Source of the DNA: Heterotrichella gracilis
Lineage: Eukaryota > Sar > Xanthophyceae > Tribonematales > Xanthonemataceae
NCBI GenBank assembly: GCA_032358255.1
Contig: JAULBX010027219.1
Location: 1 to 39,907, forward strand
Direction of reading: 5' to 3'
DNA length: 39,907 bases
Shown: piece after piece, positions 620-38,294 of the stretch
Layout of the letters: each line of letters opens with the position of its first letter
Position numbering within the stretch: position 1 is the stretch's first letter
Program-made: the position numbers and the translations under genes
Notes under the pieces: generated by a model
Told to the model about the DNA's origin: nothing
The model's input: the letters and a program-made list of their open reading frames with translations, nothing else
The model's database searches: none

Positions 620-691
620 GCACTCCAGCAGAGTGATGTGCTTGTGGTTGATGGCTGGCTCCTGGCCCACTATGACTCCAGCCCGGCCTGA
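620..691 (+). pseudogene. Spare copy of the PRXL2 terminal exon
   Basis: An acceptor (ttctttcag, 611-619) is followed by 23 codons and a stop at 689-691. The peptide begins ALQQSDVLVVDGWLLAHYD, clearly a diverged copy of the exon at 791-922 (ALQQGGVLVFDGRRLLLAHY). Compared with the downstream exon it has small internal deletions and stops early, losing the HADFDEVLKLA end. It is in the same phase (0), so it could serve as an alternative last exon giving a shortened C-terminus. A decayed tandem copy is more likely, because the same kind of exon-edge copy occurs in the other genes here. Confidence 0.6.
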
Positions 692-790
692 TTGCTGCCA
701 CTGTATCTACATATACTGTGGGATACCATCTTGGTTGTCAATGGTGGTATCATTCCCTTGACTGACGCATGCAATCGCCCCTTTTCGCAG

Positions 791-922
791 GCGCTCCAGC
801 AGGGTGGTGTGCTTGTGTTTGACGGCAGGCGCCTGCTGCTGGCCCACTATGACCCCAGCACAGGCTCCCATGCCGACTTTGACGAGGTGCTCAAGCTGGC
901 CACGCAGCCCCCCAAGCCATAA
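791..922 (+). CDS. AhpC/TSA thioredoxin-like (PRXL2/AAED1-type) protein, last exon only
   Basis: The acceptor ttttcgcag (782-790) leads in phase 0 into 43 codons and a stop. The peptide ALQQGGVLVFDGRRLLLAHY, followed by DPSTGSHADFDEVLKLA, matches the C-terminal strand-helix of the peroxiredoxin-like 2 (AhpC/TSA antioxidant, FAM213/AAED1) family, which typically has QQGG-x-V then a H-x-DP-x-TG-x-HA pattern before the last helix. The thioredoxin fold and its redox cysteines would lie in upstream exons that I cannot see, so activity cannot be judged. A decayed repeat of its 3' end follows at 923-1012. The family call rests on this short exon. Confidence 0.6.
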   Translation, partial: ALQQGGVLVFDGRRLLLAHYDPSTGSHADFDEVLKLATQPPKP

Positions 923-1012
923 ACCCTAGCTTAGGGTATGGAGATGCACCTGTCGACTTTTCACACAGTAGTGAAGGTGGCCTCGCAGCACTCCAAACCC
1001 TAGCTTAGGGTA
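921..1012 (+). repeat. Duplicated exon-end and telomere-like junction
   Basis: The 18-base string aaaccctagcttagggta occurs at 921-938 and again at 995-1012. Each is preceded by a related piece of the PRXL2 exon end (ggccacgcagccccccaa at about 899-916; ggcctcgcagcactcca at about 979-995). This is a short tandem duplication of the 3' end of the last exon plus a telomere-like element. Confidence 0.6.
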
Positions 1013-2369
1013 CGAAGACGGGCATGTGCGGACTTGTGGCTGGGCATCGGCCCTGGATGGGGGGCGGCGGGGCTGGTTTGCGTCATGCGAGGAAGGGCTG
1101 TGGGGGGATGTGGTGGAGGTGCAGAGTGATGGGAGGCGGGCGGTGTCTTATGCCATGCTGTGGCCTCGGCGCGCAGCTGCCAGATATGATGCCCTGCTGC
1201 CAAATGCGTGGAGACACGCACGTGGCGGGGCTGACCCACAGGCAGCTGCTGATTGCTGGGCCCAGCGTGGCGGGGCCACTTGCCTTGACCCCCCTCTTCG
1301 CACCTCGTTGAAGGAAATGGAAGAAGATGTGCAGCTTACGGGCACACGTGTGCCAGGTAGTTGCAATTATGGACTTTTGTGATAAGGTGGTTGTTGTACT
1401 AAAGGTAGGGGCACACGGTGTTATACTATGGTGGCCACACGCCCTGGACTATCAGGACTTGCCCTGTCTTCAGGGTTTAGGGTTTAGCAGCGCCCAGGGG
1501 TCAGCCCGGGGGTTTGACCATATGGGCCAAACCTCTGTCAAGACAGCTGCTTATAACTGTTGCGAAGGTTATAGGCTGTATGTGGACAATAAAATGGAAG
1601 TAATATCATTCAGGGTTGGATTCTCCGAAGCCATAGCATTGCAGTTGGGAAATTCAGTTGATGTTTTGTGTGTATGCTATATTCGATCACTGTTGCTTAG
1701 TGGTACCTGGAATAAACATGCTCTGCACCTGGCGCTGTTGCGCGTTTATCTGTAGCACCGTCGGCTTCAACCTGTACACTAACTGGGATGGTACCAAAGG
1801 TACACTACTTTTCACAGGTGGTTCTTTTGTCAACTTTGTCACCCTGTTGCCCCGCAAATTGCAAGGAAGAGGGTGTAACGTTGATACCCTGTTCAAAACT
1901 GACGCCACCACCACCTGCCCCTGATCCTTGGCTTCAAACACCACTTGCTGCCTGGAACCCTGCTAGGTTTGTCACGGAATCGTGACAGGTGGCAACGCCC
2001 TTGAAACCGCGAGGGTGCACCAATCTGACCAGTGGGGTTCTGCTGCTGTGCCACCAGCTGTTGCTGCACAGAAGCAGACGGCCGGCCAACACAAGTCCCT
2101 TAATAAGGGCAGGCCTCCGTATGAACCATCACCGCCCCACACAGGCCAGCCATGCACTGTGGCAGGCTGCCAGCCAAGCACTGGAGGCCTCCACCTCACA
2201 GGCTCGGTGTGGGAACTGCACCCGCCAGTTATGCACTGTGCGTTGGCTGTCACATGGGCGTGGGCAGCTGATGTTCCAGCCAGGACACCTCTGGGCCAGA
2301 GAATGCAAGCTGTGACCTTGTGCCACAGGAGCTGTATTGTAACGACAAATCAGCAGGTGATCCACCGAG
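1013..2369. other. No assignable gene; one coding-like stretch
   Basis: Positions about 1026-1356 on the plus strand stay open in one frame with coding-like composition (WFASCEEGLWGDVVEV is the best-looking part) and end near a possible donor (gccag|gtagtt). I could not assign a family or find partner exons. The rest (1360-2369) shows no convincing exon and holds scattered telomere-like pieces (for example near 1480). Confidence 0.25.
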
Positions 2370-2402
2370 CTATGGTGTGTAGTTGAGCTGTTTGTCGTTA
2401 CA
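2338..2402. repeat. 12-bp perfect inverted repeat
   Basis: tgtaacgacaaa (2338-2349) is the exact reverse complement of tttgtcgttaca (2391-2402), with a 41-base loop. The proposed last SEC61B exon (2370-2387) and its acceptor lie inside the loop and right arm. A transcript of either strand could form this hairpin. Confidence 0.6.
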
Positions 2403-4359: not shown

Positions 4360-9188
<4,829 letters not shown>

Positions 9189-10889: not shown

Positions 10890-11572
10890 ATATACGTCAG
10901 ATGCATGGCCACGGGGTAAGGGGCACGTCTGCAGCTGATCGACATAGGGGCCCTCCTCTGGGATCTGCTATGAACAATGTCTGTCTAATCATCGGTGTTC
11001 GCCGCTACGTTATCAACTGGCCGGTCTGATAGACCAAGCAACACCTAAACCCATAACGTAACCCCAAAATGGGCGTTCACAACCCTGCTTGTTTTTATTA
11101 CCTTCCTGGCGTGGCAATCCAGCCCGCAGAGAAGAAGGATGCGATGTGTGCCTGGTTGCTGCCTAGGGCCGTGAGAGCATGTTGGGTCTTAATACTCTGA
11201 TTATTTCTGAAAAGCATGTTGGGTCACCAGCTGAGCATCTGCTTGCTACTTGCAGGGTTGCAAAGTACTCACCTGGCACCGGCTCGAGGTCGCTGGAAAC
11301 ATTGTCCAGTAACACGAGCTTCCTTCTCGAGTCGACACGAAGCACGTGGGAGCTCCTTTACTGCCATGGTGGCAGCAGACACCGTCACCCAACGCCCAAG
11401 CTGCACCAAGAATAATGTTTCTTGCCTGAAGAGTCAGCGAGACTGCACAGTTGACAGCCCAGTTGAACCTAGTCTCTAGCAGCACCTCATGGCGGCTCCC
11501 AGCACCTCATGGCGAGGACCCAGCCAGAAACCCTAGGCGCCAGCGCAGAGAAAACCTCCAGCCCAAGCTCCC
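10890..11572. other. Spacer, no gene seen
   Basis: This lies between the unidentified tail and the OPA3 promoter side. No exon or RNA gene was recognised. The sequence from about 11480 onward already carries repeats of the cagaaaccctagg type that belong to the OPA3 5' flank. Confidence 0.4.
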
Positions 11573-11712
11573 CAGCCACACGCCAGAAACCCTAGGAGCA
11601 GGCGCTGAAACCCTCCAACCCCAACGGGGCCACCCCCTTCTTCAAGCTCTTTGCGCTCTCCATCACCCTAGCCACGCGCCAGAAACCCTAGGAGCCGGCG
11701 CTGGAAACCCTA
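11573..11712 (+). repeat. Repeated OPA3 5' flank and start-exon fragment
   Basis: The string ccacgcgccagaaaccctaggag (one copy with 'cacac') appears at about 11576-11601 and 11673-11697. Between them, cttcttcaagctctttgcgctctccatca (about 11637-11666) is a copy of the real first exon (ctgctcttcaagctctttgctctaaccatca from 11732). The start region was therefore tandemly duplicated, and the upstream copy lost the ATG (ggggccacc against ccatggcca). Confidence 0.75.
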
Positions 11713-11723
11713 CACCCGCAGCC

Positions 11724-13417
11724 ATGGCCACGCTGCTCTTCAAGCTCTTTGCTCTAACCATCAAAACAGCCGCCAAGCCGCTGAGCAACCGATTCGAGCA
11801 CTATGTGATGAGCCACCCAACCCTGCGGGGCTACGTGTTTCGGATAGCACAGGTGCGCACAAAACCCTACCTCAGGGTAGCTCTAAAACCCTACCACAGG
11901 TGTGCATAATATTCTAGCACGACGCACCCAGCAAACCCGTCCACATGGGACACCCACAAGCTGGGATGCTGCCGCTGTTGGAATGCTGCTGAAATTGTTT
12001 AAATGGACATCCATGCCAAATTTGCATTGCAAGTTACTATGTGCCGGTGCTGCTGCCGTTGTGGTGCACGCTTGCCTTCACTCCAACCCTCAATCTGAAA
12101 CCCTCGTGGTGTCATGCGAGCCGAAAATCACGCACCAAACCCTGACCCGTTGTGGTGCCTGCCAGAAACCCTGACAGCCCGTGCGCAAACCCTTGTGTAG
12201 GGTTTGCATCGGTTCGAGGTGCGCATATCACGCAAGCTAACGATCACCCACCAAACCCTAATCCATTCTGCTGTTTCCCAAAGCCCCTGACAGCCCGTGC
12301 GCAAACCCTTGTGTAGGGTATGCATCGGTTCGAGGTGCGTATATCACGCGAGGCGGAGGGCAAGAAGGGCAAGGCGTTTGTGGGGAACATCAGTGACGAG
12401 AAGGCGCTGCAGCTGGCATCCAAAGTGGCATCCGAGGGTTTTGTGTATATGGTAAGGGTCCCGGGGTGTGAGAAGGGTTTAGTGGGCTTGATGGCAGTGC
12501 TGTAATTATGTATTGGCTTCATACGAGCCTCCTCTGATATAAAAAACGGGGGGGAAAGCTGCATTGCATTTGTGGCGAGCATCAGTGACGAGAAGGTGCT
12601 GCAACTGGCTTCCAAAGTGGCATCCGAGAGCGTTGTGTACATGGTAAGCGTCGTGTACACAAGGAGGGGTGTTGGAGGTTGGACAATTGCATGCCGTTGT
12701 TAAGAGCAGCCAGCCTTGCATACGCGGGTGTGGGCCTAGTAGCCTGGGAGTGCACAATGCCAGCGCAGCATGCTGGAGAAGCTGGAGAAGAAGCTGCCAT
12801 TATCCCAAGTATATTGGGTAATAGAAAAAAAACAAACTACACAAAAAAAGTCTGATAAATGTGGCAGTTGTCCTCTCCCGCGCTGCACGAGAAACTGTTT
12901 CATACTGTTGCAGGTGGGTGCGGGGGTAGTGGCCTGGGAGTACCAGCGCAGCAAGCGGGAGAAGCTTGAGAAGAAGGAGAAGGAGGAGGCCTTCAGGGCT
13001 TCGCTGGACGCAGTGCTGGATGGCGAGCGCAGGTAGATATAAATTTTGAGAAAATTAATTTGGTGATTTTCTGTTACTTGTTTAGCAGAGCACCTTTGCA
13101 CTTTGATACCCGGCAGTTGTTACCCTGGCTGACCATTTCGTTTCATGTCCAACTTGAGAGCCTGCACAATTTTTGGCGCCTAGAATTCCCCTGCGCTGCG
13201 CTGTGTGACAATCCTGGGTTGAATAAATAGATATTTGTTTATTTATACATCTATTTATTTTGGCGGACGCAGGCGGCTAACGATAGAGAACCAGCACCAG
13301 AACGCCATCATCCAAGCGCTGGCGGAGCGGTTGGATGAGCTGGAGAGGCAGTGCCTGGCACAGGAAGAGGCCAAGAGCAAGAAGCAGTCATCATTTTTCG
13401 GCGTGTTTGGGATGTGA
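11724..13417 (+). CDS. OPA3: OPA3-like protein
   Basis: Exons 11724-11852, 12317-12451, 12914-13032 and 13273-13417 join in phase (0, 0, 2) into 175 residues, close to human OPA3 (179). The start ATG sits in gccATGgcc. Residues 1-43 (MATLLFKLFALTIKTAAKPL then SNRFEHYV) match the family N-terminus, with its hydrophobic stretch and KP-x(2)NR motif. Residues 44-98 include HRFEVRISREAEGKK, NISDEKALQLASKVASEGFV and VGAGVVAWEYQRS, the conserved core. A charged coiled coil follows (KREKLEKKEKEE, then LAERLDELERQ), and the protein ends in SSFFGVFGM. OPA3 family proteins sit in mitochondrial membranes; their biochemical role is unsettled. Decayed exon-edge copies lie in introns 1 and 2. Confidence 0.93.
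12181..12243 (+). repeat. Copy of OPA3 exon 2 5' edge
   Basis: gtgcgcaaacccttgtgtag then ggtttgcatcggttcgaggtgcg, repeated almost exactly at 12298-12336 where the true exon 2 begins. The copy keeps the acceptor (tgtgtag) but has TTG where the exon has ATG, and it diverges after tatcacgc. Confidence 0.85.
12550..12792 (+). repeat. Copies of OPA3 exon 2 3' part and exon 3 5' part
   Basis: About 12563-12655 copies the end of exon 2 (tgtggcgagcatcagtgacg..., still with donor catg|gtaagc). About 12722-12790 copies the start of exon 3 (acgcgggtgtgggcctagta..., ending ctggagaagaagctg) without a usable acceptor. Both lie between the real exons 2 and 3. Confidence 0.85.
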
Positions 13418-22300: not shown

Positions 22301-25300
22301 TAATTTACAATATTTTTTGTACAATAATAGCGGAATTTCCCTGTACCTGGTTGTTCTGGTTGATCTGGGATCCCTGGGAGGAGGAGGTCTGGTCAGCCTG
22401 GATATTGCCGGTGGAGTTGTCCGAAAAGAGGCGGGTGGTCTTCTGGAAGAGGTTGCTGTTCACGTCACCGGCAGAGGTGAGCTTGCCGTTGACGTTGCTC
22501 TGGTCAAGGTTGGCGGAGTTGGTGACTGTAGGAGGGGAGGGACAGGGGGGTGTGAGTGGCGGGAGTAGGGTTAGGGTTTAGGGTTCAAACGAGCTTGGCG
22601 TTTGCTCTGGTCAAGGTTGGCGGAGTTGGTAACTGTGGGAGGGGAGGGAAAGGGGGATGAGCCGCAGGGCTTAGGGTTTAGGGCGAGCTTGTCTGAACTT
22701 GAGCGTTGCTTCCCCGGCGACATCCGCGTATAAGCCTTCATTGAGACACTAAAACACCCCCCTGTCGCAAGCAGGCAGCACTCTGTACAGGCATATGTTT
22801 TACACTTGTTCACTGCTGCCCACAGAATTTGTATGCCTTCACAATACAACAACACAGCGCCCGCGGCCATGTTGCCTCAACCCTCTCAGCATTTAGGGTT
22901 TGTAGGGTTTTGCTCCCGCACCGTTCTGTCCACCGGCGGTTGGATGAGTGATGATCTCCAACGCCGGTCAGGGCGCCCCCACCAGTGTTGGACTGGGAGT
23001 TCACCAGGTAACATATAGGGTTCAGGGTTTTGGGGTTTAGGGTTTTGGGCACGCACCGTTCTGCCCACCGGTGTTGGAGATGCCGGTCTGGGAGCCGCCA
23101 CCAGTGTTAGTCTGGGAGTTGACCACAGAGTAGCCCTGGTTGTTCCCGACAGTGCCCTTGTTGTTGGTGATGCCGGACTGCGCAGAGGACTTGAGGGTGT
23201 CGTTGTTGTAGTTGGCCTGGGAAGACTTGTCCATCACATTGACCACGCCCTGGCCTGCAGAGAGGAGTGGGTACTGGTGTGGGTGCATGGCCGCGAGGAG
23301 TGGGGGTACTGGTATGGGTACACGGGCTCAGGAGTGGGTACTGGTGTGGGTGCACGGGCTCAGGAGTGGGTACTGGTGTGGGTGCACGGGCTCAGGAGTG
23401 GGTACTGGTGTGGGTGCACAGTTGCGGGCTGGGTACTGGTGTGGGTATTGAAATGGAATGGTGCACAGCCAAAGGACACTACTACAGTGGTCAGGTCCCT
23501 GGATGCATTGCCAGACAAGCTATAGCGCATCTTTAAAGGTACTTATTTATTAATGATGATTGGACTGGACCACACAGCAACACGATGCTGTATGGCAGTA
23601 GAAACCCTATAGGCTACACCCTTACCGATGCGACTGGCCAGGAAACCGTTCTGGATCCCTGCTGGTAGGTGGACTTCTTGGCGCCCTGGTCACTAAAAAC
23701 CCTACAGAGGCCAGTAAAACCCTAGACCCCACAGATGCCAGTAAGACCCTAAACCCTTACCGATGCGACTGGCTAGGAACCCGTTCTGTGAGCCCTGCTG
23801 GTAGGTGGACTTCTTGGCACCCTGGTCATTCACGTTTGAGGCGACGGCGCCGGTGGTGGTGCTGCCTGTGTTGTTGACGTTGGCGGTGGCGAAGAGGGTG
23901 TTGTAGGAGGCCTCGTTGGAGTTGTACTGCTCATAGTACTTCGAGTCAGGGTTGGTACCTAGGAGGGGGTTGCCCTGGGAGTTGCTCACAAGCGCTGCGG
24001 GTGGGGGAGGGGGGCGGTAAGTGGCGGGTAATGAGGCCCGGGGCGGGAGGTTTTTTGCTATACTAGAACTAGAGAGTGTCTCAACATCCTAGAGAGCGCG
24101 CTGGCATGCCCCGATGCCACGTGGTGTGGTGCACCGGTTGCTGGGCTTGCACTTAAAAAGCACACACACACATCCGCCTGCGCTGCGATGTCAACCCTAA
24201 AACAAACCCTAAAACCCTGGCGTGCACCTGCAGGCTGGTCCATGGTAACTCCAATGCCCTCCCCTCCCTGAGTGGGGTTTGTGCACGTGCACAGGTTGCC
24301 CTAAACCCTACACCCACCTCACACCCGGCCCTTGGCGCCTCACACAGCAAACCCCAAAACCCTTCCAAACCCCCGTTGACGCGTCATGACGTGCAGCCCC
24401 TACATCCCAAAACACACCTGCAAACTTGGCCTTGGTCCCTCCAATCCCCTCCCCGTCCTGGGTGGTGTTGGTCTGCCCATGCTATTTGCCCTGAACCCTA
24501 AACCCTGCTCACACAGAAAACCCAAAACCCTTCCAATCCCCGCCTGCGGAGCCTCCCAAACCCTACACCCTACAGAAGGGTCCACACCTAGAGACTTGTC
24601 CTTGGTCCCTCCGATGGCCTCGCTGTCCTGGGTGGTGTGGTGTGCGTGTGCTGGTTGCCCTAAACCCTAAACCCTACACAAAACGGCCCTGGCGCTCCTC
24701 ACAGAAAACCCCAAAACCCTGCCAACCCCGCATTTGACGTGCAGCCCCTAAAACCCTAAACACACCTGCGGACTTGTCCTTGGTCCCTCCGATGGCCTCG
24801 CCGTCCTGGGTGGTGTTGGTCTGCGTGTGCTGGTTGCTCAGTTGGGTGCCGGAGCCATCCAGGGCCACGGTCCCGTTGTTGCCCGCAACCACATGAATGT
24901 TGGCGGCGTTGACGTTGGCGGTGTTCTCGTTCGACTGCAGCTGTGCCAGCTGGTTGCTGGCTGAGCCGAAGGCGGTCTTGGTGGTGCCTCCCTGGGCGGA
25001 GCCCTCCTGGTAGTCTGACGAGTTCACCACCTGGACGAGGACGGGTTTCGATTAGGGTTTGATTTAGGGTTTTGGTTTGGTTTACGGTTCTGCAAGACCC
25101 TCAACCACCCCGGTAGCTTGGCGCGTGCATCTTTGCAAGTATTTTATCCACAATTTATATACCTACACATACATCTACCTATAGGCAGCTTCGGACCTGG
25201 TAGTTGGCGATCGACTGGGCGCCGGTGAGGGTGACTGTGCCGTTGTTCTTGTTGTTGGTGACCTGGCCAGTAATGAGGGCAGAGTCGACGCCGCCGGGGG

Positions 25301-28300
25301 TTGGGGACTGGAGGTATGTGGTGCTGGCGGCGTTGGCTGCCGTGGTGTTGGAGTAACTGATGGCGGTACCTGCAGGAGGAAAAACGGGGACATAAATTAC
25401 CCTAATGCATGACCCTAATCCAGTGTTAAAGTGGCTGATGGCGGTACCTGCGGGCACCGGGGGGGGACATAGATAAACCATAAATTTTATATTCCGTAGA
25501 CCCTAGTTTCTGGAACCCTATACCGGTGTTGCAGTAGCTGATGGCGGTACTACAGGCGGGGAAACAGGGGCATGAACTAGCGGGACGTACGCCCTAAACC
25601 ATTAACCCTGCACCCTACATCATGATGGTGTTGGGAGTAGCGGATGGCCGTGCATGAGGGTCCAGGGGAGGATGCAACGGACCCCTCAAACTTCCAGCAC
25701 AGCCCACTAGGGTTTAGGGCAGCAAAACCCCGCATGCAAGCACCTGTTCCAACCCTCCCAAGAGGGTACTTCACAGCCTAGGGTTTTTACCTGCGCCGGT
25801 GATACCCTTGGCGTCGTTGGATGCGTACTGCGCGGTCTGGGCAACCTGGTTGTTGAGGTCGGTGAAGCCGGTGGTGACCTGCTGGTTGCCCGCAGAGCCC
25901 TGGAGGGTGTTGTTGAGCGTCTGGCTTGCTGTGTATGAGCTGTCATAGGTGTTGAAGGTGTTGGCCCCGGTGCGGGCGGAGGCCTGGGATTTGCCACTGC
26001 TACCAGCGGTGTTGGTGGCGAGCGAGACCTGAAGTAACACGCGTTTGTGAGCGATTTGATACATTTTTTGGGGCGAGTTTCCATGGTGCATGGCTCAGGG
26101 TTTCCCACATAAAAAGGTTGCGGTGTAGAGTAGGAGCTGTCATAGGTGTTGAAGGTATTGGCCACGGTGCGGGCGGAGGCCTGGGATATGCCCGTGCTGT
26201 AAGCTAACTAACCTCACCTGAGCTGTTAACAGACAAGCACCCGCCCACCCACGCCAGCACAGCCCTTCCCCATCCACCAACCCACACCCACCTGCGTCTG
26301 CGTGCGGTTGTTTATCTGGGAGTTGACCATGGCGTTGTTGATGGTGTTGTTGACGGTGCCGGAGGAGTTGGTGGTCCCCACAAAGTTGAGACCCACATAC
26401 CGCTGGCTGTTGTCATTCTCAGCGGTGTCGGTGGCAACGTGGGTCACAGAGCCGCCTGCAACAGGGGGGTTCAGGGTTTTAGGGTTTGGTCACCATTGGA
26501 TTAGGGTTTTGCCGTTCTCAGCAGTGACAGTGGCAATATTAGTCACAGGGTTGCAATCAGATGAGGCATATGAAGTAACATTTGAAGTTTAAAGGGCGAC
26601 ATTTGAGGCTTGGACGAGTTTGGCTGTGTTGATGGCAGTGTGCGAGTTCCGACCCTAGTGTCCCACTAAATGGAAGCGGGGAGAGGAAGCGAGTTGCTCA
26701 ATGTGGAACCCTAGACACGAAACTCTACACCCAATAGGACCCACACCCACCTCCGGTTCCCTTGGTGTCGGAGGTCGCCTGCTGGTTCTGAAACACCGAG
26801 TTCTCCTGGCCAGATGCCGTGAGTGCATTGATGGTGGTGCTAGAGTTTGCGATTGGCAAAATCTTTGAACCCTACACCCACCTCGGGGTGCAAAACCCTA
26901 CACCACACTCTACAGAAGTAAAAATCCTTCACCCACCTCCAGTTCCCTTGGTGTCCGAGGTCGCCTGCTGGTTCTGGAAGACAGAGTTCTCCTGGCCGGA
27001 TGCCGTCACCGTGTTGATGGTGGTAATGGAGTTGCCCTTTGTGGAGTTGGCCACCAGCACGCCGTTCACACCCGTGTAGTTGGCGATGTACTGGTTGTTG
27101 TGGTCATAGGTGGCGGAGTTGGAGACGGTGCCTGCAGGAGGGTTGTGCTTTAGGGTTAGGGTTTGAGCTTTAGGGTTTAGGGCTAGGGTTTAGGGCTTGG
27201 GTGGTGACTTGCCAGAGCCCCAGCTCCTGCCCTGAAAGGTTAATCCGGCCATTGCCAGTGGCACCAAAACATGTCACTGTCATTTGCGCATGGCAGCCGC
27301 TGTAACAGCAACCACTAGAAACCAGTCTTGGCATTTCCTCCCCGCCTCACTTCCCTTGCCACTCAGCTTGCAGTGGATTCAGACCCTGTGCACGCCCTGC
27401 TTTACAAGCGATTTTTGCATTTTCTTCACAGCTACAAGGCATATCAGCTTTAAAATTACAAAAATGCATCCTTTGCTTTTGAAGAGCCAATCCCTCACCT
27501 CCCTTGCAGCTCAGCTTTACCGTGCTGCCAGACCCTGTATTTGCCAGCTGCCCCGCTGGTACAAGGTGTATTTCATTTGCATTTTTATCTAAAGCTACCA
27601 ACGGCGAGGCACACCAAATTTAAAACACTTAGGAAAACTGCCCCTTTGTCTTTTCAGGGGCCATAACAGGGCCACTGTTAAAAGTCGCCTCACCTCCCTT
27701 GCCGCTCAGCTTGACAGTGGAGCCAGACCCTGTATCCGCCAGCTGCCCTGCGTTGTTGACCTGGTCGATGCTGGTGGCGTCCTGGATCTGGATGGTGGCG
27801 TTGGAGGCGGCGTCGCCCCCCGACACCTGGATATTGTTTCCAACCAGGAAGTTGGTGTTCTCTGAAACCAGGTTGGCCTGCTTGCCCTTGTTGTTGCTGG
27901 TGGCGGTGCCTGTGCGGGTGAGGGAGATGGGGGGGTGAGACGAGGCCCTCTAGGGGGTTTTGGTGGACAGGTGCGCAGTGCGTTACGGTTCCCCATCCAC
28001 AGTCCATCTCCACAACCATTCCTCGCAGTACCCTAGACCAGTGACGCAGGCACATGCAAACCTGGCTGCTTGCCTAGATGCGCTGCTGAAGCAATTGCAC
28101 TGGCTAACAGTGCGCGGTTGTCGGGGCAAGCTGTAACCCCTAAACAGGGGTCGGGGCGAAGGGGGCGCACCGTTGAAGGTCCCGTCCGCCTTCTGGGTCT
28201 GCACGTTCTCAGCCACGTTGCCCTGGTTGATGGTCTTACCCTAAACCCCAGACCCCAGACCCCAGGGAAGCAGGCTCATGCAAGGCAGGCTGCTAACCTG

Positions 28301-31300
28301 AAATGTGCCATTTTATTTTTGTACGGTTCAGGGTTTGTGCAAAAGGGGCGCACCGTTGAAGGTCCCGTCCGCCTTTTGGGTCTGCACGTTCTCAGCCACG
28401 TTGCCCTGGTTGATGGTCTTGCCCACCGCCACCGACACATTGGCGGTTTGGGTGGAGTTGACCAGCGACGCCGTCATGCCCGAGTTGACATACAGGTTGT
28501 TGGTGTTGCCCTGGTTGTCGGTCTTGGTGTTGCGCACAGTGCTGCCGCTAACCCCCGAGATGGACTGGTCGTTGGAGGCCTGGTTGATCTGGTTGCCGAC
28601 AGCTGAGCTGGCGTACTTGACCTCCGAGGTTGCCTTTCCAAAGGTGGCCTCGGTGGTGTCGAACTTGGTGACGTTGTTCTGGGCGGTCTGGGTGGCGTTG
28701 TAGGTGTTGGAGGCGCCTGCAGGGTGGGGTTTAAATTTAGGATTTTCATAACGTGGGGTGGGGTTCAGGGTTTAGGGTGCTAGGGTTCACTGCAACCTGA
28801 CGTTGGTGCTACCGCCGTTGCCTACCCTGGTGGCACCGGCACCAGCACCTTACTTAAGCACACAGTAGGAAACCCTAAACCCCACACAGTAGGATACCCT
28901 AAACCCTACACAGTAGGAAACCCTAAACCCTACACAGTAGGAAACCCTAAACCCTACACAGGCGTGCGGACCCACCATTCCTTGCCCCTGTTGTGGCCAT
29001 GCAGCCCAGTTTCTGTCCAATATATTCAATACTTTGAACTTGATGAACTTGACATATTTGACGCAAGACACCAGTCTTGACTAGAGCATACCGGGAGTAA
29101 ATAAAGGCATTCAGAGTTATTTTTAATTTCAACAAAGTTGCAAATAATTAGTTATTTAACTTTTCATGTAGGTACTCGTTAATTTCAAAATGCTCGCCAT
29201 AATTTGGTTAGTGAATGCAGGTACTCACTTGTCTTTGCACTGTTGGTTCCCGACAGCTGCTGCTTGTTGGTGGCGGAGTTGGCAACGTTGCTCTCGGCGT
29301 TAAACGAGAAGCTGGCCTTGTTGTTGGCCGCGTTGTTGGGGGCGCCAGTCAGGTCGATCGTGTGGAACACGTCGTGGGTCAGATTGGAGGAAATCTTCTG
29401 GGTGATGTTGGCAATGTTGCCATTCACCACGGCCCCAGCCGTGGGGGTTGGGGGCGGCATGGGTGGGGTGGGGGGCGCAGGGGGCGGCGACTGGAAGGCC
29501 GCTGCTGGCGGGAACGGGGGCTGCCCCTTCTTGCCGATGTAGACTGTGCTGGATCCGGTGGCTGCGATATTGTTGGATTGCTTGACCTTGGCCACGTTGG
29601 AGCCGGCAGCATCTGCACACACAGCGGCCCCACTCAGGACAGTTTGCACATAAGCATTGACCCCAATGCTGTATTTTAGTACCACCTTACAGCCCACTGG
29701 TGTGTCTAGGGTCTAGGGTTTGCGGTCGTGCCAAGGAACACAATGCTGGAGCCAACTGCAGTGTTATTTGCAGCAATGGATCAGGCAGAGAAAGAATGTG
29801 GAGCATGCGCAGACAAACCACATATTTAGGGTTTAAGGTTTCCCGCGCACCTCCTCCCGCCACTCCCTGCTGGGCCTTGAAGGAGTTGATGGCTGTCTGC
29901 GACACAGTGTCCTTGCCGGTGATCAAGCCAGAGTTGACGGGCGAGAGGCCAGCCACATACACCGCCACGTTGGTGGTGGCGTTGATGGAGTTGTCGATGG
30001 ACTGGTCGGCGGCGATGTAGTTGCCAACAGGGGGGGTGCTGGTGCCTGCAACAGTGGTGTAGGGTTTAGGGTTTTGTGGCCATTGACAGGGACTCAGTGG
30101 TCGGCAGCAATTGCCAACGGGGGGTGTGTGCTGGTTCCCGTGAAAGCGGGGTAGGTATTATGAGGTACTAAACCCTAAGTCATAGACAGGGGTGCTGGTC
30201 CCTATAGTTGCCCACTGGGGGCGTGGTGGTCCCTGTGAAATGGAGATGGTAATATGAGTTTGATGTTGGTGGTCTGTGACGAATGTCTTGAGAGCTGACT
30301 GGAAAAGCGCAGGCAGGCTTTTAGCTGAATAGCTGCTAGTCTCTTTTAGAGCTTCTCAACTCCAACAACATATGCGGTGTGCTTGCCTTGTCCCCTTCTT
30401 CGGCTACTGCAAGTTCCAAGGTGGCCCCGGCACCACCGCAGCCAATGCCTCTTACAGCACCCAGTCCACTTGTGTTCCATGGGTATGCTGCTCTCAACCC
30501 GGAATTCTAAACCCAGTGCACTTGTGTTGAATAAGCTGCATTTGGTCTATACACAGCCAGCCCAAACGGTGTATGGTACCACGACAGCCTTTCTTTCCGC
30601 CCCATATGATTGTTGGAATGGCACAAGGCCTTGCCATGGGGGGATGTGCGAACTCACTCCCGCATGCCAGCCTGTGCAAGCTTGAGTGCGCAGTGGCATG
30701 CGGGAGTGAGTTGTGTCCTGTAAATATGGCACTGCCCCATGGCCTTGTTTGGCCCATCCATCGAGGATGAGATGTGCACAGTGGATGTCGCACGTTCCAC
30801 TGTGTATGCGAGGCAAGCATGGTTGGTGGGAAGCATATGCACCCACTAGGAAGCTCGGTGTGGCCCTGGCCTTGTGGGGTTTAGAAATTCCTTTCAATTA
30901 CCTACTAGGGTAACCGCGTGGTCCAAATGCCGAGACTTTTAAAGAGGACCACATCTTTCCGTTATATGAAAGGAGCAGAGGGTCTGACTAGCCTCCAGCA
31001 TGCAGTGCCAAAGTGTAGGCCCCCGCGCGCACCTGGGCTCATTACAACTACTTGCGTGCTGCCGATGGTGTTATTCGTGCTGGCACTAGAAGTCATATCA
31101 AACTCTTTAGGGTTTTAGGGTTTAGGGTGTACCTGGGCTCAAGCCAACCACTTGCGTGCTGTCAATTGTGTTGTTCGTGCTGGCACTGGATGTGACATCA
31201 AACGACACCTTGACGCCTGCGGGAAGCGTTGGACCAAGGTTCAGAAAGTTCATTCAGATAATGGAGATTTGAAACAGGGAAAGCACCTATTCAAATGTCA

Positions 31301-31884
31301 GCCGCTAGGGAGCCATGTCTGGGCTCAAGGCCACTTGCTGGCTATCAAGGACATAACTTCAAGGTATGCAGGAGCTTCCAACAGACTAGGAACAAATGCA
31401 GGCACGTCTGTGCCACCGCCTAGCCCAAACCTCCGTATGTGATGGTGCCTCAGACCTATCCGCTGTGTGTGTGGGCACCTTGCAAGCGAGCATTCAAATT
31501 TTAAATACAATTTTGAAATGTAAAAAGTGTAAGTCTAAACAAGAACCTACCAGTGGAGGGGACGTAGCCTGGAGGGGGTGGGCTGCACCCAAAGGCGCCG
31601 CAGCCACCTCCCGAGGAGGCCTTTGGTGGCGGCGAGGGCGGGATGGAGGTGCCATAGTTCACAGTCGCAGAGTTGTTCTGAGTGACCTGGTAGTTAGTGG
31701 AGAAGTCAGAGCCCCCAACCGTGACTCCACCCCCGATGTTTATCGTCTGTGTCCTGTTGTTGCTCACGCTGGAACTCTGTGTGAGGGAGAAGGATGGGGC
31801 GGCTGCCTGTGCAGTCGCCAGGGCAAGCACCACACAGCTGAGGACCGCCTGCCAGGAGGCGCCCTGCGTGTGTGAGCTGACCAT
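16359..31884 (-). CDS. Giant secreted N/Q/S/T-rich glycoprotein, 24 exons, no known family
   Basis: Minus-strand exons: 31884-31551, 31216-31133, 30045-29851, 29612-29229, 28716-28354, 27909-27694, 27131-26937, 26455-26292, 26028-25791, 25369-25197, 25030-24766, 23994-23761, 23254-23057, 22525-22347, 22016-21794, 21507-21371, 20677-20369, 19989-19839, 19591-19400, 19206-19094, 18870-18753, 18241-18041, 17221-17030, 16540-16359. All introns are GT-AG and every phase agrees (17 phase 1, 6 phase 0), giving 5040 nt, 1679 residues. It starts with a signal peptide (AVLSCVVLALATAQAAA). Exon 1 adds IPPSPPPKASSGGGCGAFGC, whose two cysteines are the only ones after the signal. Exon 4 has a proline-rich spacer (QSPPPAPPTPPMPPPTP). 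The rest is Asn/Gln/Thr/Ser/Gly-rich with V/I/A alternation (TINQGNVAENVQTQ, FGNATITQNAQ) and about 40 NxS/T sequons. The last exon is a basic SPPPKKR heptad tail. The composition suggests a beta-solenoid or curlin-like fibre in wall or matrix; this is inference. Confidence 0.85.
16381..16528 (-). repeat. 21-bp coding minisatellite (SPPPKKR heptads)
   Basis: Within the last exon a 21-base unit (ggtggggacctcttctttggg on the plus strand) is repeated about six times. The minus strand encodes SPPPKKR/SPPPKKK heptads ending SPPPAKKTGRRMLAL. SPPP motifs are typical of hydroxyproline-rich algal wall proteins; the regular Lys/Arg pairs are unusual there. Copy number is likely to vary between strains. 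Confidence 0.85.
16779..16968 (-). repeat. Two copies of large-gene exon 23 3' end
   Basis: The 3' end of exon 23 (real donor at 17030, NLGGITNQKITQKKVAKG) recurs at about 16909-16966 and 16788-16847, both still with the ccaagg|gtacg donor but with altered and, in one case, stop-containing frames (HLGGVTSGKRSPR; HLGGITSD-stop). Confidence 0.8.
17313..17857 (-). repeat. Four copies of large-gene exon 23 5' edge
   Basis: Copies of the exon 23 start (acceptor plus GGGKAENVVVSNSTGVTTVT in the real exon ending at 17221) lie upstream at about 17313-17395, 17497-17577, 17676-17722 and 17825-17857. The 17497-17577 copy is fully open (GGGKAENVASSTSTGVTTTT then KTFVYN) with a good acceptor (cattcccccag) and would reach a stop near 17482. 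The copy with its edge at 17722 has lost the middle. Confidence 0.85.
18640..18712 (-). repeat. Copy of large-gene exon 21 3' end
   Basis: gcgcacatgtcataccggggtt then tgcctggatcttgccaccaccctagccatacccgtcctgct copies the exon 21 end (18753-18810). Small pieces of the exon 21 start (gggcgatgatggtggtc) are also copied upstream at about 18938-18957 and 19017-19027. Each lies against gggtttaggg sequence. Confidence 0.75.
20138..20256 (-). repeat. Two copies of large-gene exon 18 5' edge
   Basis: atcggcagtgaagatgtaactctcaacctc (20140-20170) and aaatatgaagttctcaacctta (20230-20252) repeat the exon 18 start (atcagcggtgaagatgtagttctcaacctg, ending 19989), the first with its acceptor-side intron. Confidence 0.8.
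20811..21195 (-). repeat. 113-bp tandem array carrying exon 17 5' edge
   Basis: Three nearly identical units start at 20811, 20924 and 21037 (spacing exactly 113), plus a decayed fourth near 21160. Each contains acceptor plus exon 17 start (plus strand: cagctgggtgccgacatactggttgccctgcgggg) followed by gggttttagggtttgtaggg. The true exon edge is at 20677. High similarity marks this as the youngest amplification in the window. Confidence 0.92.
21663..21722 (-). repeat. Copy of large-gene exon 15 3' end
   Basis: gcgtacgtgggcgggcggtgcgctgcggcaccacgtaggtgacctgggtctggt repeats the exon 15 end at 21789-21842, including the donor GTAC. It then runs into agggtttgctagggtg. Confidence 0.85.
22597..22650 (-). 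repeat. Copy of large-gene exon 14 5' edge
   Basis: tgctctggtcaaggttggcggagttggtaactgtgggaggggaggg repeats the edge at 22498-22540 almost exactly, acceptor included. The two are separated by gggttagggtttagggttc. Confidence 0.85.
22915..23010 (-). repeat. Copy of large-gene exon 13 3' end
   Basis: The region resembles 23050-23125: cgcaccgttctgtccaccgg..., then gcgcccccaccagtgttggactgggagtt. It keeps the donor (gtgcgg on the minus strand) but has insertions that break the frame. Confidence 0.8.
23260..23450. repeat. 32-bp intronic minisatellite
   Basis: Units of caggagtgggtactggtgtgggtgcacgggct start at 23329, 23361 and 23393, with diverged units on both sides. They lie in the intron just upstream of exon 13 of the large minus-strand gene. 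Confidence 0.85.
23622..23695 (-). repeat. Copy of large-gene exon 12 3' end
   Basis: Copies the exon 12 end at 23757-23828, keeping the donor (atcg|gtaagg). One base is missing relative to the exon in the QGSQNG region, so inclusion would shift the frame. Confidence 0.85.
24228..24672 (-). repeat. Three copies of large-gene exon 11 3' end
   Basis: Copies at about 24228-24310, 24413-24505 and 24590-24672 match the exon end at 24762-24837. All three break at the same point, where ggttgc runs into cctaaaccct, whereas the real exon continues ggttgctcagttggg. The shared junction shows one founding event followed by re-duplication of exon piece plus telomere-like tract. Confidence 0.88.
25424..25656 (-). 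repeat. Three copies of large-gene exon 10 5' edge
   Basis: gtggctgatggcggtacctgc (about 25431), gtagctgatggcggtactac (about 25534) and gtagcggatggccgtgc (about 25635) copy the exon 10 start (gtaactgatggcggtacctgc, edge at 25369). Each is followed by ggg-rich intron sequence, and two are separated by ccctaatcc- or ccctata-type tracts. Confidence 0.8.
26105..26200 (-). repeat. Copy of large-gene exon 9 internal/5' part
   Basis: gagctgtcataggtgttgaaggt and the following gtgcgggcggaggcctgggat match exon 9 at about 25935-25990 with few changes. It lies upstream of the exon and lacks the true acceptor. Confidence 0.8.
26749..26860 (-). repeat. Copy of large-gene exon 7 3' half
   Basis: About 105 bases matching 26931-27035. 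It is still open on the minus strand (INALTASGQENSVFQNQQA then TSDTKGTGG) and keeps the donor ggag|gtgggt. The available upstream AG is out of frame, so it is probably not an exon. Confidence 0.85.
27340..27567 (-). repeat. Two copies of large-gene exon 6 3' end
   Basis: About 27494-27567 and 27340-27405 repeat the exon 6 end (ctcacctcccttgccgctcagcttgacagtgg at 27689-27720). They are progressively more decayed with distance from the exon, consistent with serial duplication. Confidence 0.75.
28157..28243 (-). repeat. Copy of large-gene exon 5 3' end
   Basis: gggggcgcaccgttgaaggt and about 60 further bases copy 28346-28420 almost exactly, with the donor (aacg|gtgcgc) intact. The copy breaks at gatggtctt|accctaaacccc, that is at a telomere-like tract. 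Confidence 0.9.
28860..28963. repeat. 24-bp telomere-like tandem repeat
   Basis: Four units of cacagtaggaaaccctaaaccct plus one base, in the intron between exons 4 and 5 of the large gene. The unit fuses cacagtagga to two CCCTAAA-type repeats. Confidence 0.9.
30067..30240 (-). repeat. Decayed copies of large-gene exon 3 5' edge
   Basis: tggtcggcagcaattgccaacggggg (about 30091) and tagttgcccactgggggcgt (about 30205) resemble the exon 3 start (tggtcggcggcgatgtagttgccaacaggggg, 30004-30035). They lie upstream in the intron. Confidence 0.6.
30651..30712. repeat. 19-bp perfect hairpin in intron 2 of the large gene
   Basis: aactcactcccgcatgcca (30651-30669) pairs perfectly with tggcatgcgggagtgagtt (30694-30712) around a 24-base loop. 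An outer imperfect arm follows: acaaggccttgccatgggg near 30623 against ccccatggccttgt near 30737. No transposase or clear target-site duplication was seen. It could be a small foldback element or a small-RNA precursor. Confidence 0.8.
31020..31110 (-). repeat. Copies of large-gene exon 2
   Basis: acctgggctcattacaactact then tgcgtgctgccgatggtgttattcgtgctggcactagaagt (31031-31092) is a diverged copy of exon 2 (31131-31216); its minus strand reads SASTNNTIGSTQVVVMSP. A shorter, older scrap (tctgggctcaaggccacttgctggctatc) lies upstream of the exon at about 31317-31346. Confidence 0.8.
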
Positions 31885-34800: not shown

Positions 34801-35289
34801 CACCGCATGCAAACAGACGTATTGGCTGAAGGACAACTTAATTTCAGCCACCATGTGTACAGATTTGGAATAAAGGTGTGTACCTATGGCGTCCCGCAGG
34901 TCGCAAGTCTTGCTTCAACTGCTCATTAGCTAGTAGGATATACCGTTTTTAGGCTAGTCCCAACTTTGAACAGCGCTGCAACAGATGATGTGCAATGACA
35001 ATTGGCAGCGTTGGTAGTGCAATATTGGAGGAAAATAGGATGAACCATTAATGCCAAAACGCTAGCAACAGCCACCCCACAACATTGGGCAAGTCGTGGC
35101 AGGCATAAAATCGCCCGTCCACAAGATTGACGCAAAGACAGGCAGCCACTAGTAACACTTGCACTTTTGCAGGGTGGTTTGCCCCAAGCATAGCCATGTC
35201 CAGGCGCCCTAGGGCAGTGTCCGATGTGCATCCAACTAAACCCTAAACCCTAGCAGGGCTCCTGAGTCGTGTGCCACCTCTGTCCCTGT
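31885..35289. other. Spacer upstream of the large gene
   Basis: This lies between the start of the large minus-strand gene and the 3' flank of UBC9. Long chance reading frames occur on both strands around 32760-33520, but none resembles a known protein or shows supporting splice sites. No RNA gene was recognised. It should include the promoter of the large gene just above 31884; no specific element was identified. Confidence 0.4.
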
Positions 35290-35520
35290 GTGGCATCTCC
35301 TTCCCACTGGCGGCGGGTACCCCAGTCCGGGGCTTGCCAGCTCCCCTCCCTCCCAACTCCCCACCTCTCTCATATTGGCGGTAGGTCTCCTCCACCCGCT
35401 TCCCACCCAACCACGCGCACCACAGAGCCACCCCGCACCCTCTCCTACCACTCCCGACCCCCCCCTGTAGCGCTGGGTACCTCCTCGCCTCGGTCCTTGC
35501 CTTGTCCTAGTACTGGACAC
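35290..35520 (-). repeat. Copies of UBC9 last-exon 3' end
   Basis: Variants of ggcgggtacctcctggcttggtcctt (real exon 35598-35625) occur downstream at about 35311-35337, 35375-35400 and 35474-35500, each more decayed than the exon. A TGTAA motif on the minus strand (35538-35534) lies 50 bases after the UBC9 stop and may be the polyadenylation signal. Confidence 0.7.
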
Positions 35521-35587
35521 TGGTTGCATGGCATTACATTTGGTCACCTGGTCACCTGGTCCCTCCCCCCCTCCCCCTCAGCCCTTC

Positions 35588-38294
35588 TCATGTGGGTGGC
35601 GGGTACCTCCTGGCTTGGTCCTTCACCTTTCTCCGGTAGTCCGCCATGCGCTGCGTGAACATGAGGAAGGCATCGGCCTGGGCGGGGGAGTTGGGGTTGG
35701 GGGTGTCCAGGAGCTCCTGCGGGGCCAGAGGTGGTGGAGAGGTTTGAAATAGCTATCGTCAAATAAACTAATAAAATTTGGACGAGAAATTGAAGTAAAA
35801 AAAACACATGTAGTGGGCGTGGCTAGGAGCTCCTGCGGGGGGCAGAGGGGGGAAATGTGAGTGGCGGCGCGGGGGGGGAGGGTGTGACAAACCAGCTGGC
35901 CGGATTAGCAGTCAAGTGCAAGACTGACATAAAGCTCGCCCACTGCGGCAACACTATTCCCCCCACAATGTTATTTGTTGTCGTCACCCACGGGACACGT
36001 GGACTGTCCACACACACGCCTTGCTGCACCCCCTCCCTACCCCGCCCGCCCGCCCTGCCACGCAGCTGTACAATACATCATCCGGTGAACAGCCGCATGC
36101 ATCAGAGCTGTGCTGCAACTAAGCTTGCACACGCCGCGCCAGGGCTGTGCACGTAGTGCCGGAGGGATGCATTGCAGGCGACTCACACTACCCCCTGGTT
36201 GATGTCAAACCTGCACACCCCGTTGACCCCGTTCACCCCGTTCACCCCGCGCCCTGTGCACCCCCCCCACCCTGCCGACCGCACCTGAACGCCCAGCAGG
36301 ATCCGGTGGTGATCTACGGCTGCAGCCCTCGTCTTCAGGATATACTAGCACTGTTATCGTACATGGATAGGTTATACTTTTACATTGTGTTATGATTTAA
36401 AAAATATATGCATCATTACCATACCTGAATGCCCAGCAGGATCTGTTTGATGGTGATGGAGGGCCGCCAGCCCTCGTCCTCGTTCAGGATGGACAAGCAT
36501 ACCGTGCCCGAGGGGTAGACGTTAGGGTGGAAGAACTCGGAGGGGAACTTGCACTGCAGCCAAAGGGGGGAGAGGTTTAGGGTTTAGGGTTACGTGATTA
36601 GGGTTAAGGCTTGGGGACTGAGCCTGGGGAGGGACATAAGGTAGGGTGGAAGAGCTCGGAGGGGAAGATGCACTGCGAGCAAGGGGAGTAAAGTGGGGGT
36701 GAGGAGAAGGAAGAACATGCAGGGGTGCACCCACAAACGCGAAAATTCAACAGCGGAATTTTCCAACACCATGTTGAACATTATTTACCTGTGTCTATGG
36801 CTGTTAAGCTATTCCGGCAGTGTGAGGTAAACCGGCCACAAATAATGTGTGCGGCATGCCCACTTATTGGGGTTTAATTAGGGTTTACCACCCACCTTTG
36901 GTGGCTTGGCAGGGTAGTCCTCGCTGAATTCCATAGTGAGCGGGAAGAACCCCCCCTCCCAGTCTGTATCGTCTTTCCCTGGGATGAAGCACTTCCACTT
37001 GAGGTGGTTGGTGGACCTGCGGTGAGGGGTTTAGGGTTTTCAGGGTGTGCGGTATCATCCTTCCCAGGGATGAAGCACATCCATCTGCCATGAGGGTTTT
37101 GGGCTTGAGGGTTTGCGGCTTTGAAGCCATGGGATGGAGCGATGACCATCCTGGCAGCATGGTCAGCAGTGCTGTGTGGTGGGTGGTGTTGAGTGGTGGG
37201 TGGTGCTATGTGGTGGGTGGTGCTATGTGGTGGGTGGTGCCGCGGCTGTGTACGTGGGTGGTGAGTCAATGGGTGCTAAGTGGTGGGAGGGTGCAAGGGT
37301 GTGGCCATCAGTGCGGCAGCGCCGCATGGTGGGCACTGCCATGTGGTGGGTGATGCGGCGTGGTGGGTGGTGCTGCCTAGTGCATGCTGCTTTGTCATGG
37401 GTGGTGGGTGGTGGGTGGTGGCGCCAGGTCAGTAGTGTGTGTGGTGTGTGGGTACAGGGATGGTGGGCATCAGTGGGGCAGCGCCGCATGGTGGGTGGTG
37501 CGGGGTGCGGCATGGTGGGGGGTGGGGGTGCCGCACGGTGGTTGGGGGGAGATGCAGCATGGTGGGGGGTGGGGGTGGGGGGTGCGCACAGTGATGGACC
37601 TGCTGTGCCGTGCAGTAGATGGTGCAAGCGAGTGCATGGCTGACTGCTAGGGCAATGCATCGCTGACTGCTACCCTAAAGAACCCTAAATTACCCGGAGG
37701 GCTTGTCCATGGGCCACGCCTTGCGCTCTTCTGCTAGTCAGATCCCCGCTACACACAACATCACCCCAGGGTGGAAAACCCTTGGTCGGGGTTTCAGAAA
37801 CTACCTTTTGCTGTGGTTTACACCCTACACCCTTCAACCTCCCCACCCTACCCCCTAGCAAAACCCTGTTTACCCGTATGCGTTGCACTCAGGCCGCGCA
37901 TGGAACCCGAATGGCATGTCCCTGCGCCCTGAAACTCAATACTCTAGACCTGAACCCTCAACCACGCCTTGCGCACCCCAGCCAGGCCTCACAACTCCCA
38001 TTTTGCTACCGAGGCACATGGTTTCATACGCTGCTACTCGCCGCCACTGCACCCTAAACCCTAGACCCTACACAAAGACTCACCCGTCTGCAGTCCCCTC
38101 GAGCGCGCATGGAACGCAAAGGGCTTGTCCCTGCGCCTCTACACCCTACATCTAAACCTTAAACCCTAAACCCTAAAGGAAACAAGCACTTACCCGTCTG
38201 CATTCCCCTCTGGCCGCGCATGGAATCCGAAGGGCTTGTCCCTGCGCCAAGCCTTGCGCTCTTCTGCTAGCCGGCCCCGCGCTATACCCGACAT
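35588..38294 (-). CDS. UBC9: SUMO-conjugating enzyme E2 (UBC9)
   Basis: Minus-strand exons 38294-38194, 37016-36896, 36553-36425 and 35716-35588 join in phase (2, 0, 0) to 480 nt, 159 residues, the standard UBC9 length. It starts [20 protein letters not shown], the diagnostic UBC9 N-terminus that binds SUMO and E1. It continues [20 protein letters not shown], then [16 protein letters not shown] with the catalytic cysteine at residue 93 exactly as in the human enzyme, then [18 protein letters not shown] and [17 protein letters not shown], and ends RYPPPT. UBC9 accepts SUMO from the E1 as a thioester and transfers it to lysines of mainly nuclear targets. It appears complete. Copies of its exon edges lie in introns 1-3 and the 3' flank. 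Confidence 0.96.
35815..35850 (-). repeat. Copy of UBC9 exon 4 5' edge
   Basis: ggctaggagctcctgcggggggcagaggggg repeats the exon 4 edge (ccaggagctcctgcggggccagaggtgg, 35707-35734), acceptor included, in intron 3. Confidence 0.75.
36283..36684 (-). repeat. Copies of both edges of UBC9 exon 3
   Basis: About 36283-36340 copies the 3' end (cctgaacgcccagcaggatc..., donor GT lost). About 36640-36680 copies the 5' end (ggtggaagagctcggagggg then aagatgcactgcgagc, acceptor kept). The real exon 36425-36553 lies between them. Confidence 0.8.
37040..37095 (-). repeat. Copy of part of UBC9 exon 2
   Basis: gtatcatccttcccagggatgaagcacatccatctg resembles exon 2 at 36966-37000 (gtatcgtctttccctgggatgaagcacttccacttg). 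It has no usable acceptor. Confidence 0.75.
37160..37620. repeat. GGTGGGTGGTG-rich minisatellite
   Basis: Degenerate tandem units of the type tatgtggtgggtggtgc fill much of UBC9 intron 1. The plus strand is strongly G-rich, so the antisense of the UBC9 transcript carries the G runs. Confidence 0.7.
37688..38140 (-). repeat. Three copies of UBC9 exon 1
   Basis: About 38087-38140, 37880-37935 and 37690-37770 resemble exon 1 (38194-38294). The last one covers the start-codon half (gccttgcgctcttctgctag, then aacatcacc where the exon has gacattacc), so the initiation codon itself is altered. All lie downstream in intron 1, among ccctaaacccta tracts. Confidence 0.8.

Follow-up and report, generated by a model that had tools for sequence, protein, structure and literature searches.

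Copies of exon edges in the introns of a Heterotrichella gracilis contig, and telomere-like sequence at their seams

Genes of the window and copies of their exon edges

The stretch of DNA described here (the window) is the 39,907-nucleotide contig JAULBX010027219.1 of Heterotrichella gracilis (Xanthophyceae; assembly GCA_032358255.1), one contig within a genome of 68.5 Mb and 903 contigs. Its gene models comprise PECT, OPA3, UBC9, a 24-exon gene for a secreted protein and the last exon of a PRXL2-like gene, and its introns carry decayed copies of the edges of neighbouring exons. A first-pass annotation had reported such copies in all five genes; we found at least one in each, and the exon-edge copy observation is confirmed as real. 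The gene models are as follows.

791..922, plus strand: PRXL2-like last exon (the label is that of the first-pass annotation), from the gene-finder and splice model
4880..9188, plus strand: PECT gene, seven exons modelled (4880-4954, 5294-5435, 5824-5972, 6567-6899, 7341-7491, 8356-8497, 9038-9188); continuous frame, 70% identity to green-algal PECT, PF01467
11724..13417, plus strand: OPA3 gene, exons 11724-11852, 12317-12451, 12914-13032 and 13273-13417; continuous frame, PF07047 (E 7e-28)
16359..31884, minus strand: gene for a secreted Asn/Gln/Thr-rich protein of 1681 aa, a single frame across all 24 exons
35588..38294, minus strand: UBC9 gene, exons 38294-38194, 37016-36896, 36553-36425 and 35716-35588; complete 159-aa frame, PF00179 (E 2e-45)

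Self-comparison of the window at E<=1e-4 yielded 61 local repeat pairs, of which 60 were direct and one was inverted, the latter an imperfect palindrome at 30651-30712. At E<=1e-3 there were 70 pairs: 46 matched exon with intron, 2 matched exon with exon, and 22 were of neither kind, being, by eye, copy-against-copy, minisatellite, low-complexity or telomere-like. We then grouped direct repeats with a period of 50-700 bp and a length of at least 35 into families under a low-complexity filter, and called a family exon-involving if it overlapped an exon by at least 15 bp. In the window 30 of 32 families were exon-involving, against 13.8 +- 2.5 expected (maximum 23) from 500 rotations of the exon map, which agrees with the previous estimate of about 30 events.

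As a comparison we took advantage of a 230 kb sample from elsewhere in the genome, consisting of 18 pieces of 10 kb, picked at even contig numbers rather than drawn at random, and one stretch of 50 kb. Two of the 20 sample pieces had been excluded before any counts, L017 because it is all N and L018 because of its 35% GC; L018 has no predicted exons and is perhaps organelle or foreign DNA. For the sample, exons are those predicted by a gene finder of ours that had first learned from the window and afterwards from its own predictions. Of eight predicted proteins tested (chosen from 17 listed chains, and three of them incomplete), five had a Pfam match at E<=1e-5, and in piece L005 the finder mistook decayed copies for exons. 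Exon-involving families made up 34 of 42 in the sample, against 17.0 +- 3.1 expected from rotated exon maps.

The copies also lie on a predictable side. The rule previously proposed, that copies of 5' edges lie upstream and copies of 3' edges downstream of the real exon, was borne out among exon-to-intron alignments with a score of at least 54 (35 in the window, 24 in the sample): the copied part was nearer the exon edge that faces the copy in 34/35 and 23/24 cases respectively, 57/59 together, and lay within 8 bp of that edge in 53/59. The sole exception in the window is the UBC9 copy at 37694-37773, which holds the start and most of a short first exon. When three exon edges were searched against all 68.5 Mb, their copies were found solely in the same intron.

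For the analyses below we used the nearest copy of each edge, a set of 39 edges (21 from the window and 18 from the sample), having left out 2 of the 41 edges with a copy because the copy begins more than 14 bp inside the exon. The window has 21 such edges per 40 exons and the sample 18 per 209; copy rates vary among stretches, the window included, beyond chance (p 7e-5), and the 50 kb stretch holds none of the 39. The window is therefore a hot region for exon-edge copies. Those found in it are listed below, where a seam is the boundary of spacer and copy and SP denotes the secreted-protein gene.

567..682, plus: decayed copy of the PRXL2-like exon 5' edge, upstream; 73.8% over 122 columns to 739-859
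6191..6271, plus: copy, 5' edge of PECT exon 6567-6899; 89% identity with that edge, unmatched elsewhere in 68.5 Mb
6373..6453, plus: second copy of the same edge; 89%
7129..7211, plus: copy, 5' edge of PECT exon 7341-7491 including the acceptor; 95% over 83 bp, exon part 98.4%
7547..8239, plus: four-copy array and fragment, 3' edge of PECT exon 7341-7491; units 7547-7625, 7682-7748, 7867-7960 and 8013-8092, fragment 8179-8239; several spacers carry telomere-like AAACCCT
8653..8721, plus: copy, 3' edge of PECT exon 8356-8497; 82% over 73 bp
8844..8910, plus: copy, 5' part of PECT exon 9038-9188; 83.6%
11570..11665, plus: adjacent copy, beginning of OPA3 exon 1 with its 5' flank; period 96, 81.6%
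12127..12236, plus: copy, 5' edge of OPA3 exon 2 and adjoining intron, a whole-unit tandem duplication; period 116, 86%
12566..12652, plus: copy, 3' edge of OPA3 exon 2 including the donor; 87%
12726..12793, plus: copy, 5' edge of OPA3 exon 3; 78% over 68 columns
16753..16924, minus: copies, 3' edge of SP exon 17030-17221
17317..17856, minus: array of copies, 5' edge of SP exon 17030-17221
18648..18710, minus: copy, 3' edge of SP exon 18753-18870; 90.5%, telomere-like seam
18935..19024, minus: weak copy, 5' edge of SP exon 18753-18870; 71% over 101 columns
20138..20174, minus: copy, 5' edge of SP exon 19839-19989; 86% over 37 bp
20805..21188, minus: array, 5' edge of SP exon 20369-20677; units 20814-20865, 20927-20978, 21040-21091 and 21153-21188
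21660..21715, minus: copy, 3' edge of SP exon 21794-22016; 91%
22591..22683, minus: copy, 5' edge of SP exon 22347-22525; telomere-like seam, homologous flank
22886..23006, minus: copy, 3' edge of SP exon 23057-23254; 73.6% over 121 columns
23614..23692, minus: copy, 3' edge of SP exon 23761-23994; 92.5%, telomere-like seam
24225..24658, minus: three copies (about 24225-24299, 24415-24489 and 24585-24658), 3' edge of SP exon 24766-25030
25525..25579, minus: copy, 5' edge of SP exon 25197-25369; 80%
26130..26198, minus: copy, 5' part (from 27 bp inside) of SP exon 25791-26028; 91%
26744..26847, minus: copy, 3' edge of SP exon 26937-27131; 86.5%
27343..27556, minus: two copies (27343-27389, 27493-27556), 3' edge of SP exon 27694-27909
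28148..28241, minus: copy, 3' edge of SP exon 28354-28716 including the donor; 93% over 94 bp, the sole other match in 68.5 Mb
31031..31103, minus: copy, 3' part of SP exon 31133-31216; 83.6%; spacer 31104-31132 (29 bp) mostly telomere-like; 23 bases of this kind lie within 40 bp of the seam
36283..36350, minus: copy, 3' edge of UBC9 exon 36425-36553; 75% over 77 columns
36629..36686, minus: copy, 5' edge of UBC9 exon 36425-36553; 81.7%
37052..37083, minus: copy, 5' part of UBC9 exon 36896-37016; 87.5% over 32 bp
37694..38137, minus: three copies of UBC9 exon 1 (37694-37773, 37870-37928, 38051-38137); 84-88%, unmatched elsewhere in 68.5 Mb

Some further observations concern the gene models themselves. 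By the protein search the alga falls among green algae: its PECT most resembles proteins of that group, and the nearest one with a name is from Micractinium (70-71%). A candidate first PECT exon with a hydrophobic stretch lies at 4387-4497, with a phase mismatched to the next modelled exon. The PRXL2-like exon matched no Pfam family at E<=0.01. The 1681-aa secreted protein ends in a Pro-Lys tail; no homologue at E<=1e-3 was found among 7985 candidates scored from a set of 5.8 billion proteins, and its first 526 residues had no Pfam match.

Divergence, spacers and periods of the copies

Counted by codon position over 41 alignments, exon and copy differ at 66, 72 and 141 sites (141 of 279 at third positions), the pattern expected of a neutral copy beside an exon that drifts at silent positions. 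By our own count, 8 of 11 arrays have two copies that are less alike than either is to the exon, and the exon thus behaves as the ancestor. In L014 and in the array at 20805-21188 the copies are closer to one another than to the exon, indicating that a copy itself got copied, and the array of PECT exon 5 is mixed. The copy in the intron decays as if neutral, while the one still attached to the remaining exon is retained. Gene conversion or constraint on the copies was considered and is unneeded for most arrays, though a copy in L006 may be an exception.

It could be argued that the copies are instead functional, as alternative exons or as decoy splice sites under selection. Their splice dinucleotides are mostly intact, some L005 copies keep an open frame, and the share of third-position differences is higher in downstream copies (98/173, 57%) than in upstream ones (43/106, 41%; p 0.01, uncorrected for multiple tests). 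Yet GT or AG is kept in 42 of 51 copies, where 43.5 would be expected without selection, and neither the codon positions nor the splice dinucleotides reveal the coding constraint that marks an alternative or mutually exclusive exon. Together with the ancestral behaviour of the exon in most arrays, these values make functional copies very unlikely. We also note that at L005:968-1103 the 3' exon-edge copies that keep an open frame, and that the finder chained as exons, carry repeated YKELGMTEEAPK-like stretches.

If a whole period had been duplicated in tandem, one would expect the spacer to resemble the sequence flanking the copy on its far side. Such homology was found (p<0.05) at 17 of 39 edges, where about 2 would be expected by chance; 7 more were borderline (p 0.05-0.11, uncorrected for multiplicity) and 15 gave nothing. 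Intron parts of duplicated units lose similarity faster than exon-like parts, and some spacer homology may have faded. Age alone, however, does not account for its absence, because exon identity is 0.906 at edges with spacer homology and 0.903 at the remaining 22. Some copies may be born with unrelated spacers. The earlier claim of tandem duplication thus stands in part: the copies are local, direct, on the expected side and backed by spacer homology at 17 edges, but at 22 that homology is not shown.

These 22 edges bear on a different origin, templated insertion, in which a break in an intron would be patched with 40-100 bp from a nearby exon edge, leaving an unrelated spacer. Among them are copies that share 94-100% identity with the exon (L006, p 0.62; L004 and L007, p 0.054). 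Against this, the 17 edges with spacer homology look like whole-unit duplication, and patches should be drawn from intron sequence as often as from exon edges; we consider templated insertion improbable.

Periods at the 39 edges range from 94 to 222 bp and separate into two classes, 115 +- 15 bp (16 edges) and 189 +- 16 bp (23 edges), with Bayesian information criterion values of 405, 394 and 395 for one, two and three components. The duplicated exon parts are mostly 33-97 bp and reach 153. The step near 189 bp is close to nucleosome size, which is suggestive only. It has a parallel in Introners, mobile elements that tend to insert in linkers according to PMC9860276, and such elements might in principle carry the spacers. 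An Introner family places the same element in many introns, whereas both spacers that we searched (2/2) match nothing else in the 68.5 Mb, which rules against a mobile element as the source of these two; moreover, the target duplications given there for some families are 3-9 bp, not the 40-100 bp or so of exon sequence duplicated here. We give this explanation scarcely any credence. AT-rich islands fared no better as filler, being present in 4/23 long-period and 2/16 short-period spacers, compared with 12% of random 110-bp intron pieces; 200 such islands compared with each other gave 8 matches only.

Telomere-like sequence at seams and concentration in genes

Two features escaped the first-pass annotation: the two size classes and the presence of telomere-like sequence at the seams. 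At least seven contigs open directly with an outward-reading array of TTTAGGG, which was therefore taken as the telomere repeat. The unit is also present elsewhere, and its exact matches number at least 50 forward and at least 51 reverse. Telomere-like coverage, scored by 6-mers, is 33% in the first 20 bp from the seam, 15% in the next 20 and 8% by 40-60 bp, relative to 5.6% for introns. A motif like this presumed telomere repeat of the organism lies within 40 bp of the seam at 24 of 39 edges (window 14/21, sample 10/18) and is missing from 15, whereas random intron 40-mers have it in 22% of cases (p 1.5e-7). Short-period seams carry it more often than long-period ones (14/16 and 10/23; p 0.008).

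The association extends to introns at large. In the sample, AGGGTTT is the most intron-enriched of 20 units of equal composition (0.040, the next being 0.031) and is ordinary in other noncoding DNA (0.0186). Across 24 stretches, edge copies per exon rise with the telomere-like load of the introns (Spearman 0.69, p 2e-4), as they do when the window is left out (0.53, p 0.015). Edges without a visible copy (136 introns for each side) have the motif at 0.32 within 60 bp of the donor, compared with 0.20 in the interior (p 0.003), and at 0.29 near the acceptor, compared with 0.22 (p 0.054). Such an excess would fit either old seams that have lost their visible copies or tracts that preceded any copy.

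The second of these possibilities is the main rival to the repair reading developed below. Telomere-like tracts near exons might stall replication or break, and so provide hotspots or microhomology for tandem duplication. The motif excess at copy-free edges speaks for it, as does the retention of a tract by every unit in some arrays, and interstitial telomeric DNA is described as a source of instability in PMC6410037. Against it, the motif is densest at the seam itself: beyond the copy, coverage is 0.06 in the first 20 bp and 0.18 at 20-40, and at 31104-31132 the spacer is mostly telomere-like and the flank beyond its copy is not. On balance we regard tracts-first as unlikely.

Other accounts of the motif were set aside. 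A splicing signal is disfavoured by the about equal frequency of both orientations near donors, and the order of orientations has few transitions (17 C-to-G, 9 G-to-C) that could represent a telomere-fusion signature. Close to acceptors in window and sample introns, the coding strand seldom shows TTTAGGG but often CCCTAAA, perhaps through avoidance of cryptic TTTAG acceptors. A 24-bp minisatellite at 28860-28961 has four copies, and its unit ends in telomere-like AAACCCTAAACCCT.

We then asked where duplications fall. The view that short tandem duplications hit the whole genome uniformly, with exons merely making them visible, had been advanced previously and can be compared with random placement: units of the observed periods would give 1.0 intron-only and 2.6 other noncoding duplications for each junction-spanning one. 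How many of these would still be recognised depends on their visibility once no conserved exon is involved. With exons and copies masked, 16 linked noncoding families remained beside 64 exon-involving ones (by a whole-array linking rule, which left 16 families linked and 10 free), for a visibility of at least 0.25 and an expectation of at least 16 intron-only and at least 42 other noncoding families. A narrower linking rule made 6/39 edges visible (0.15) and left 21 other families, many beside exon-edge arrays; the expectation then becomes at least 10 and at least 26. We found 8 and 2. Of the eight intron-only families, one is a minisatellite, one is a low-complexity stretch and four have periods below 90 bp, a range that the exon-edge events do not occupy. 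In simulation the visible lifetime of noncoding duplications was about 0.8 of that of junction ones (from our own table sum), which would predict about 50 intron-only and about 130 other noncoding families.

The 2 families outside exons and introns, where at least 26-42 were expected, strongly indicate that the events favour genes over the DNA between them. Within genes, exon edges are likely a further point of concentration, on the basis of the simulation and the period filter. A uniform process can appeal to the faster loss of similarity in intron parts of units and to the intron-only duplications that do exist, the 8 found being not far under the lower-bound 10-16. It is nevertheless hard to reconcile with the near absence of families between genes, the more so at the simulated visibility, and we think it quite unlikely; the assertion that exons only reveal the events fails outside genes, and within introns the evidence against it is weak on the lower bounds and stronger only at the simulated visibility.

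A repair reading and its relation to known systems

We consider it somewhat probable that these structures arose when staggered breaks within genes underwent error-prone repair, in many cases with telomeric DNA as filler, and that splicing then left a copy in the intron. Each event would begin with a staggered double-strand break inside a gene, frequently close to an exon edge; filling of both overhangs would duplicate 100-200 bp; telomerase, or the capture of telomeric DNA, would add TTTAGGG filler at one end before end joining; and splicing would strand one copy in the intron, where decay is free. The reading combines two processes known at breaks, fill-in duplication by CST-Pol alpha and telomeric insertion; its enzymes and the order of its events are what we infer.

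Several observations weigh against repair with telomeric filler. Telomere-like sequence is missing from 13 of the 23 long-period seams. The motif is also raised near the real junction in the same introns (0.15, 0.22 and 0.16 over successive 20-bp steps from it), which makes the excess at seams partly regional, and units of an array may each carry a tract, in which case the tract may predate the duplication. Spacer homology is not shown at 22 of 39 edges (7 of them borderline), where exon identity is no lower, and the L006 copy is identical to its exon at 60/60 positions beside a spacer without flank homology. Finally, the deficit of free duplications within introns is weak on the lower bounds (8, where at least 10-16 were expected).

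A broader proposal is that telomere-directed repair of exon-edge-tied breaks in transcribed genes is a main engine of intron growth in this lineage, leaving telomere-like tracts and stranded edges in two chromatin-related step sizes. We regard this as doubtful at present. Copies of conserved exon edges in introns that are free to decay constitute a duplication record with a built-in ancestor, the exon. In a genome rich in them one could measure directly how often short duplications arise, how large they are, what their seams consist of and where they fall. Such a genome would also link telomere maintenance to intron evolution, and would show introns growing through spliced-out duplicated exon edges rather than transposons.

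Intron gain by genomic tandem duplication is a related route, in which duplication of coding sequence is tolerated because splicing removes the extra part. The present case differs in that the duplication spans an existing junction and no new intron results. A literature search found no report of the exon-edge copy pattern, including partial-exon or exon-fragment copies in introns, although it may exist elsewhere.

A close molecular precedent is in PMC8355091, which describes small tandem duplications arising when breaks with 3' overhangs are filled by CST-Pol alpha-primase and then end-joined, CST being the telomere fill-in complex. Like the copies here, those duplications are short, direct, independent of repeats and located at break ends; there the insertions are short (<100 bp), whereas here periods are 94-222 bp, seams are often telomere-like and the events are concentrated in genes.

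Interstitial telomeric insertion likewise places telomeric DNA at a repair site, sometimes with a direct target duplication. In PMC7215372, direct target duplication alone accounts for 3/66 horse loci, with deletion, addition and duplication together at 2 more, and the placement of human interstitial telomeric sequences in introns is compatible with random. By comparison with those data, exon-edge duplication is the rule at the seams described here, though these seams were selected for it. Introners (PMC9860276) resemble the present system in that insertions enlarge introns, and they can also create introns; in H. gracilis, by contrast, there is no repeated element in the two spacers tested and no short target duplication, and it is existing introns that grow.

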